Of a stretch of 36,166 nt of DNA, positions 35,850 to 36,166 are shown in pieces. Both the position numbers and the translations under genes were made by a program. The notes under the pieces were generated by a model. The model saw only the letters and a list, made by a program, of their open reading frames with translations, did not search any database and was not told the origin of the DNA. Positions within the stretch are counted from its first letter, which is position 1. Each line of letters opens with the position of its first letter. Origin of the DNA: an uncultured SAR86 cluster bacterium (lineage in GTDB: Bacteria > Pseudomonadota > Gammaproteobacteria > Magnimaribacterales > AG-339-G14); contig CACMKG010000006.1 of NCBI GenBank assembly GCA_902614235.1, forward strand, positions 1 through 36,166, written 5' to 3'.

Positions 35850-35926
35850 CGGAGTGTAGCGCAGCCTGGTAGCGCGCCTGCTTTGGGAGCAGGATGTCGG
35901 GGGTTCGAATCCCTCCACTCCGACCA
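35850..35926 (+). tRNA. tRNA-Pro (anticodon TGG)
   Basis: 77 nt: acceptor CGGAGTG pairs with CACTCCG, the anticodon stem CCTGC/GCAGG encloses TTTGGGA with anticodon TGG, the T-loop is TTCGAAT, the discriminator is A and the CCA is encoded. Very close to E. coli tRNA-Pro(UGG). Confidence 0.97.
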
Positions 35927-35966
35927 CACTTTTAGAATAATGAAAAAATTGATAAAGTGGTTTTTA

Positions 35967-36005
35967 CCAAGTAGGGGGAGCAATACTCTCGGTTGCTCAA
36001 CTTGG
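35967..36005 (+). repeat. Inverted repeat competing with the tRNA-like fold
   Basis: CCAAGT (35967-35972) pairs with ACTTGG (36000-36005), and GAGCAA (35978-35983) pairs with TTGCTC (35993-35998). That is 12 base pairs around a 9-nt loop, with a 5-nt by 1-nt internal loop. The right arm is the D-arm of the tRNA-like element, and its loop contains the 5' acceptor strand, so both folds cannot form together. Confidence 0.7.
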
Positions 36006-36053
36006 AAGAGCATTTCTGTAAAGTTGCGGGTTCGATGCCCCGGCCGAGAGACC
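35986..36053 (+). pseudogene. tRNA-like element with truncated anticodon arm (tRNA remnant or tRNA mimic)
   Basis: Acceptor CTCTCGG (35986-35992) pairs perfectly with CCGAGAG (36044-36050). The D-arm GCTC-AACTTGGAA-GAGC is perfect and keeps the G-G of a D-loop, and the T-loop TTCGATG is normal. Between the D-arm and the T-stem there are only 14-15 nt where a tRNA needs about 23, so no 5-bp anticodon stem can form, although CTGTAAA resembles a Tyr(GTA) loop. The T-stem pairs only in its inner 3 bp. The 3' end reads ACCC, not ACCA, unlike the complete tRNAs here. It lies between tRNA-Pro and tRNA-Arg. Confidence 0.65.
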
Positions 36054-36109: not shown

Positions 36110-36166
36110 CTCCTGGTAGCTCAGCTGGATAGAGCATCTGCCTTCTAAGCAGAGGGTCGCAGGTTC
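36110..36166 (+). tRNA. tRNA-Arg (anticodon TCT), 3' end beyond window
   Basis: D-arm GCTC-AGCTGGATA-GAGC, anticodon stem TCTGC/GCAGA around CTTCTAA with anticodon TCT, and the T-stem start GCAGG-TTC are present. The window ends in the T-loop, so the acceptor pairing and hence the exact 5' base (36109 or 36110) cannot be checked. Confidence 0.9.

Follow-up and report, generated by a model that had tools for sequence, protein, structure and literature searches.

Which kind of gene lies between tRNA-Pro(UGG) and tRNA-Arg(UCU) in a SAR86 genome, where a tRNA-like element (35986-36053) has well-paired stems and no anticodon? The stretch of DNA that was analysed, hereafter the window, is 36,166 nucleotides long and belongs to the genome designated G000. 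An earlier note on this sequence had left the choice between a recent deletion in a tRNA and a retained tRNA mimic or switch. We consider that the element is probably a retained tRNA-derived noncoding RNA that arose from a duplicated tRNA gene. The parts of the element and its neighbors are as follows.

35850-35926, + strand: tRNA-Pro(TGG), the normal upstream neighbor (ARAGORN; Rfam 68.2 bits)
35950-35958, + strand: candidate extended -10 box of the element, TGATAAAGT (read by eye; weak)
35967-35985, + strand: purine-rich leader, CCAAGTAGGGGGAGCAATA (sequence reading, pairing)
35986-35993, + strand: 5' strand of the acceptor stem, CTCTCGG, with U8 (alignment, fold)
35995-36011, + strand: D arm, GCTC-AACTTGGAA-GAGC, with G18G19 in the loop (direct reading, alignment)
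36012-36026, + strand: remnant of the anticodon arm, TTT-CTGT-AAA, and linker, without anticodon (direct reading)
36027-36042, + strand: T arm, 4-bp CGGG/CCCG with loop TTCGATGC (alignment, fold)
36043-36050, + strand: 3' strand of the acceptor stem, G65 (partner of U8) and then CCGAGAG (fold)
36051-36053, + strand: 3' tail, ACC (direct reading)
36110-36166, + strand: tRNA-Arg(TCT), incomplete at the contig end and whole in relatives (Rfam 37.4 bits)

Direct reading bore out the description of the acceptor and D stems as perfect: CTCTCGG (35986-35992) and CCGAGAG (36044-36050) are paired at 7/7 positions, U35993-G36043 supplies an eighth pair, and the D stem is paired at 4/4 (GCTC 35995-35998, GAGC 36008-36011). 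The T stem has 4 bp (CGGG 36027-36030, CCCG 36039-36042) and an 8-nt loop. The anticodon arm was said to be about nine bases short, and, counted as far as the last base of the acceptor stem, the element indeed has 65 nt, versus 73 nt in the adjoining tRNA-Arg(TCT). The further claim that no anticodon stem exists holds insofar as the arm is shortened, but a stub with a 3-bp stem and a 4-nt loop remains (TTT-CTGT-AAA, 36013-36022). At the 3' end, which reads ACC-C, CC is encoded and CCA is not, as had been noted; CC occurs 0-1 nt past the stem in all nine genomes that carry the element. The suggested check with tRNA finders was run, and neither ARAGORN nor the Rfam tRNA model called the element in the window. 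A small coding gene was also considered and rejected by reading: a frame from TTG at 35993 spans the G000 element, but it stops early in G002 and is shifted by a D-loop indel in G006. The candidate extended -10 has counterparts, read by eye, in G006 (TGATAGAAT) and in G008 and G026 (TATAAT); we grade it as weak because it was read by eye and a scan for a sigma-70 promoter of the element found none. The scan for a terminator was likewise empty.

Is the reduced form peculiar to one strain? The element was found at the same place in nine genomes of two genera. Five belong to the genus of the window (g1: G000, G001, G002, G005 and G006), all with the element in the Pro-Arg spacer and with contigs that, in a pattern search, are named as uncultured SAR86. 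Four more diverged carriers (G008, G026, G011 and G014) belong to a sister genus (g2), and the G008 genome is a single contig. Relatives with a normal full-length tRNA at this position would have pointed to a recent event; the nine genomes share the reduced element instead. Identity at folD fourfold-degenerate sites is 0.28-0.45 between g1 and g2 carriers and 0.41-0.46 between G002 and the other g1 carriers, as compared with a random identity of about 0.28, and these sites are near saturation between the carrier genera. Nine carriers at the same place and near-random fourfold identity refute the recent single-strain deletion that the earlier note had offered, and nine genomes, one of them in one contig, exclude an assembly fault.

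A covariance model built from the nine copies and run on 203 genomes of the order scored those copies at 67-83 bits, followed by tRNA-Arg(TCT) itself at 50-53 bits and then by lower-scoring other places, and no further copies were found among the other genomes of the order searched with it. The element is absent from G017, in which the Pro-Arg spacer has 56 nt; G003 and G004 have other sequence in its place; and wherever a g3 or g4 spacer was read, it contained genes or other sequence. G007, G020 and G023 were uninformative, with no tRNA-Pro match at the cut-off used. Given its loss or absence in G003, G004, G017 and g3/g4, the element is therefore dispensable. The Pro-Arg spacer (L026-L050) appears prone to insertion, with varied contents among relatives: by reading of translations, a short-chain dehydrogenase-like gene in g3 and a thioesterase-like gene in several g4 spacers. 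The spacer of G003 (L040) has a lone CTCTCGG after tRNA-Pro, which might be the remnant of a lost copy, although a match of 7-8 nt is no evidence. In G005, folD lies divergently upstream, and tRNA-His and then tig-, clpP-, clpX- and lon-like ORFs (names from reading translations) lie downstream. Viral contigs did not contain the g1 pattern in its exact form, which is a weak test against an origin from phages or mobile elements.

Some copies are called as tRNAs, which raises the possibility of a functional, if extreme, tRNA still at work in translation. ARAGORN reported the G008 copy as tRNA-Arg(acg) and the G026 copy as tRNA-?(ta), and the Rfam tRNA model gave 33-40 bits to the copies of G002, G008 and G026. 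Acceptor, D and T stems with G18G19 are also present as in a tRNA, with the T-loop TTC/TTT lost in G006. However, a 7-nt anticodon loop on a 5-bp stem occurs in 0/9 copies: the lower arm is a stub in g1 and a two-storey hairpin capped by a GGA-bearing loop of 6 nt in g2, and the reported anticodons rest on forced folds. A role in decoding can hardly be credited, and the ARAGORN calls on the g2 copies (L035 1630-1712; L028 1366-1449, minus strand) are likely false annotations of the same element. A mimic recognized by ArgRS is also disfavored, with the anticodon gone and A20, which we take to be an ArgRS identity element, lost in G011 and G014.

Does selection maintain the fold? In alignment A2 of the nine copies, with a structure written by hand (195 pair cells), 91.8% of the cells were standard pairs and 8 pairs had changed on both sides. 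Neither in pairing nor in covariation score did any of 500 shuffles equal the real alignment, and slid versions of the structure reached 29-49%. The D stem is undercounted in A2, in which g1 and g2 stand one register apart; it reads GCTC/GAGC in g1, GTTTT/AAAAC in G008 and G026, and TTCT/AGAA in G011 and G014. RNAalifold, without a given structure, recovered the acceptor stem, part of the D stem and the T stem, with the top half as 8/4, and it resolved the g2 lower arm into two helices, an outer one and an inner one with the 6-nt loop at its end, with double changes of G-C/A-U, G-U/U-A and A-U/G-C. Acceptor/T pairs were kept in 108/108 cells over the nine copies. The earlier note had proposed compensation as a check on its own reading, and when this was done the acceptor and T stems were found to vary through paired changes, with every pair kept in 9/9. 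Neutral decay was simulated on the tree with calibration on folD fourfold sites (20,000 runs), and 44.5 +- 6.8 of 99 acceptor/T pairs were kept, with a maximum of 71, whereas all 99 were observed. Both genera keep the 12-bp acceptor/T helix, a D hairpin whose loop has GG, CC at the 3' end and a leader rich in purines. The element is neither an assembly fault nor a recent decay product, because it has nine carriers, near-saturated folD sites and all acceptor/T pairs intact. A tRNA-like top half that has no anticodon is under selection, and the retained tRNA mimic, the other option of the earlier note, gains from full pairing and from paired changes in the acceptor, T, D and lower arms.

The top half has also been rebuilt. 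U8 can pair with residue 65 in 9/9 copies (U-G in g1, U-A in g2), which gives an 8-bp acceptor and a 4-bp T stem in place of 7+5; this pairing is possible in 0/23 distinct ordinary tRNAs of the fetched loci. The parent-like tRNA-Arg has C65, and the element copies have G or A there. These findings bear on a slowly decaying, functionless pseudo-tRNA whose stems survive by chance or through gene conversion with tRNA-Arg. Such a pseudogene would fit an element that is tRNA-derived, without anticodon and lost in several relatives, but the neutral simulation never came near the observed pairing, and the change of C65 to a partner of U8 recurs in every copy. Gene conversion is ruled out by the acceptors, which differ from the same-genome tRNA-Arg in most carriers (g1, G011 and G014); because of these differences, tRNA-Arg has not been copying its acceptor into the element. 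We regard neutral decay as very improbable.

From which tRNA, and how long ago, was the element derived? By global alignment it is closest to tRNA-Arg(TCT), especially to the g3/g4-type acceptor, with a score for G000 of 27.4 versus 15.8 for the next tRNA type, in a comparison that covered the tRNAs of the fetched loci. G002 and G011/G014 share a stretch, AAGTTACAGG, that is mismatched where tRNA-Arg has the 49-65 pair. The parent tRNA is uncertain, because this T arm also resembles that of tRNA-Val; the shared stretch nevertheless appears to favor a single origin. At pair 4-69 of the acceptor, g1 and G008/G026 have U-A. G011/G014 have C-G at this pair, as does tRNA-Arg in G003, in G004 and in those g3/g4 genomes that were read. 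In the folD tree, carriers fall in g1 and g2 and g2 adjoins g3 (support 90/89); therefore, the element either predates the split and was lost several times or arose more than once.

The leader raises the question of a switch. A 12-bp hairpin that excludes the tRNA fold had been described, and it is present in the window as described: CCAAGT (35967-35972) pairs with ACTTGG (36000-36005), and GAGCAA (35978-35983) pairs with TTGCTC (35993-35998). The exact 12-bp pairing occurs in G000, G001 and G005; the carriers other than G000 have a GGG(A)GAG-type leader. Such a hairpin, as opposed to the tRNA-like fold, might gate transcription or processing into tRNA-Arg and tRNA-His, perhaps as far as tig-clpP-clpX-lon. 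The energies of the cloverleaf and the leader-sequestered state differ by no more than 2 kcal/mol in six of the nine copies (G000, G005, G001, G006, G026 and G008), and G002 and G006 form 16-bp leader hairpins on the same target strand by sequences unlike that of G000. However, the leaders of G011 and G014 form no competing hairpin, the cloverleaf is favored by 5.6-6.1 kcal/mol in G002 (5.6), G011 and G014, and tRNA-Arg appears to have its own promoter, with no terminator found by scan. In most species the natural leader pairs no better than shuffled leaders or nearly equally, and the chance test was only marginal; shuffled leaders pair nearly as well since the strand opposite a leader rich in purines is rich in pyrimidines, and the switch is therefore possible but unproven. 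Thus, the hairpin of the earlier note stands for the window and, loosely, for g1, and is absent in G011 and G014, which supports its switch claim only in part; we rate gating of this kind as quite unlikely. The g1 leader may still trap the acceptor 5' strand and the D arm and delay folding or processing.

What, then, would the retained parts be used for? RNase P accepts a substrate made up of no more than the acceptor stem and the T stem-loop, and these two with 3' CC are sufficient for end-processing enzymes (PMC11143913). Since it has retained its acceptor/T helix, G18G19 and the 3' CC, the element is a plausible RNase P substrate. The same parts could be explained by a processing or spacing cassette. 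It would give RNase P and the 3' enzymes one more place to act, so that tRNA-Pro and tRNA-Arg are parted and an idle RNA is released, and the position of the element inside a tRNA cluster would suit this. But TAGAAT-like boxes were read just upstream of both neighboring tRNAs, G017 manages with its short spacer, and a cassette would not account for the conserved leader or for the lower arm of g2, which was rebuilt and has paired changes of its own; we hold it to be unlikely. We favor the retained noncoding RNA. A tRNA-Arg(UCU) gene would have been duplicated in tandem in an ancestor of this SAR86 family, and one duplicate would have shed the anticodon arm, ceased to decode and been kept for its tRNA-like top half. 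Transcription may start at a weak promoter of the element or reach it by read-through. Enzymes that need no anticodon, namely those of CCA addition and 3'-end processing as well as RNase P, may recognize the top half, and the RNA, whether matured or still with its leader, may work as a small regulatory RNA.

In the most specific proposal, GGA-bearing hairpins in the leader and lower arm would bind CsrA. CsrA is encoded in 34/40 family genomes, and each of the four g2 copies has two ANGGAN hexaloop hairpins per RNA, in the leader and at the lower-arm tip (P about 0.003 for each RNA, optimistic values since the motif was picked after viewing the sequences). The G008 loop ACAAGGAAGU retains ACA, GGA and GU of the SELEX consensus, and the ANGGAN hexaloop is the form bound by RsmE/CsrA (PMC7652899). 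In g1, GGA counts are at chance level, one ANGGAN hexaloop hairpin occurs, in G002, and G000 has none; the D-loop GGA of the element is inherited from tRNA-Arg. No GacA/UvrY-type regulator was found in 40 genomes; such control is usual, not obligatory, for CsrA-binding small RNAs. The T loop of the G006 copy (L022 1644-1715) now reads CAGGATG, which we take to be identical to the E. coli CsrB repeat and which may be a coincidence. Overall, CsrA binding by the element RNA is a tentative suggestion from motifs, and the full picture, in which a tRNA duplicate dropped its anticodon, came to have an 8/4 top half, binds CsrA through hairpins with GGA loops in its lower arm and leader, and has a leader in competition with the tRNA-like fold, is somewhat more doubtful still. 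If this picture is true, streamlined ocean bacteria whose searched genomes yielded no GacA circuit of the usual kind would have a regulator of CsrA that descends from a tRNA. SAR86 bacteria are abundant, genome-reduced ocean bacteria, and the element is a candidate regulator in them. To our knowledge, a role has been established for few bacterial pseudo-tRNAs; because this one can be traced by its paired changes across near-saturating divergence, it is a clean example of the conversion of a tRNA gene into a noncoding RNA. Caution is warranted in that tRNA finders annotate some copies, such as that of G008, as tRNA-Arg.

How does the element compare with known systems? YrlA, a bacterial Y RNA (RF02553) with tRNA-like modules, gave weak Rfam matches over the cluster and was rejected, with 22-27 bits against a cut-off of 69 and matches spanning parts of two neighboring tRNAs. 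CsrA sponges of the CsrB/RsmZ type have ANGGAN hexaloop hairpins (PMC7652899), like the two per RNA in g2, but the element differs from them in its few GGA sites, its tRNA scaffold and the GacA-type regulator not found; no Csr/Rsm family appeared in Rfam scans of the loci. The tRNA-like domain of tmRNA is likewise a tRNA top half without an anticodon arm, whereas the element has no tag reading frame and no pseudoknots, and a piece of tmRNA was dismissed, a normal tmRNA gene lying elsewhere in the genome. Allo-tRNAs share the 12-bp acceptor/T branch (8/4 or 9/3), split 8+4 as in the element, but they bear an anticodon and serine identity elements (PMC7609411); the element, in its alignment and folds, has no anticodon and lacks the long variable arm of class II. 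The closest precedent is the pseudo-tRNA tRNA-Other of Bacillus cereus, which has a Trp anticodon, flanks a genomic island and was shown to be conserved within one species group (PMC3399842). The SAR86 element is of the same type in being tRNA-derived, non-decoding and kept by selection, and it stands apart from tRNA-Other in having dispensed with the anticodon and in its 8/4 top half and genus-specific lower arm.
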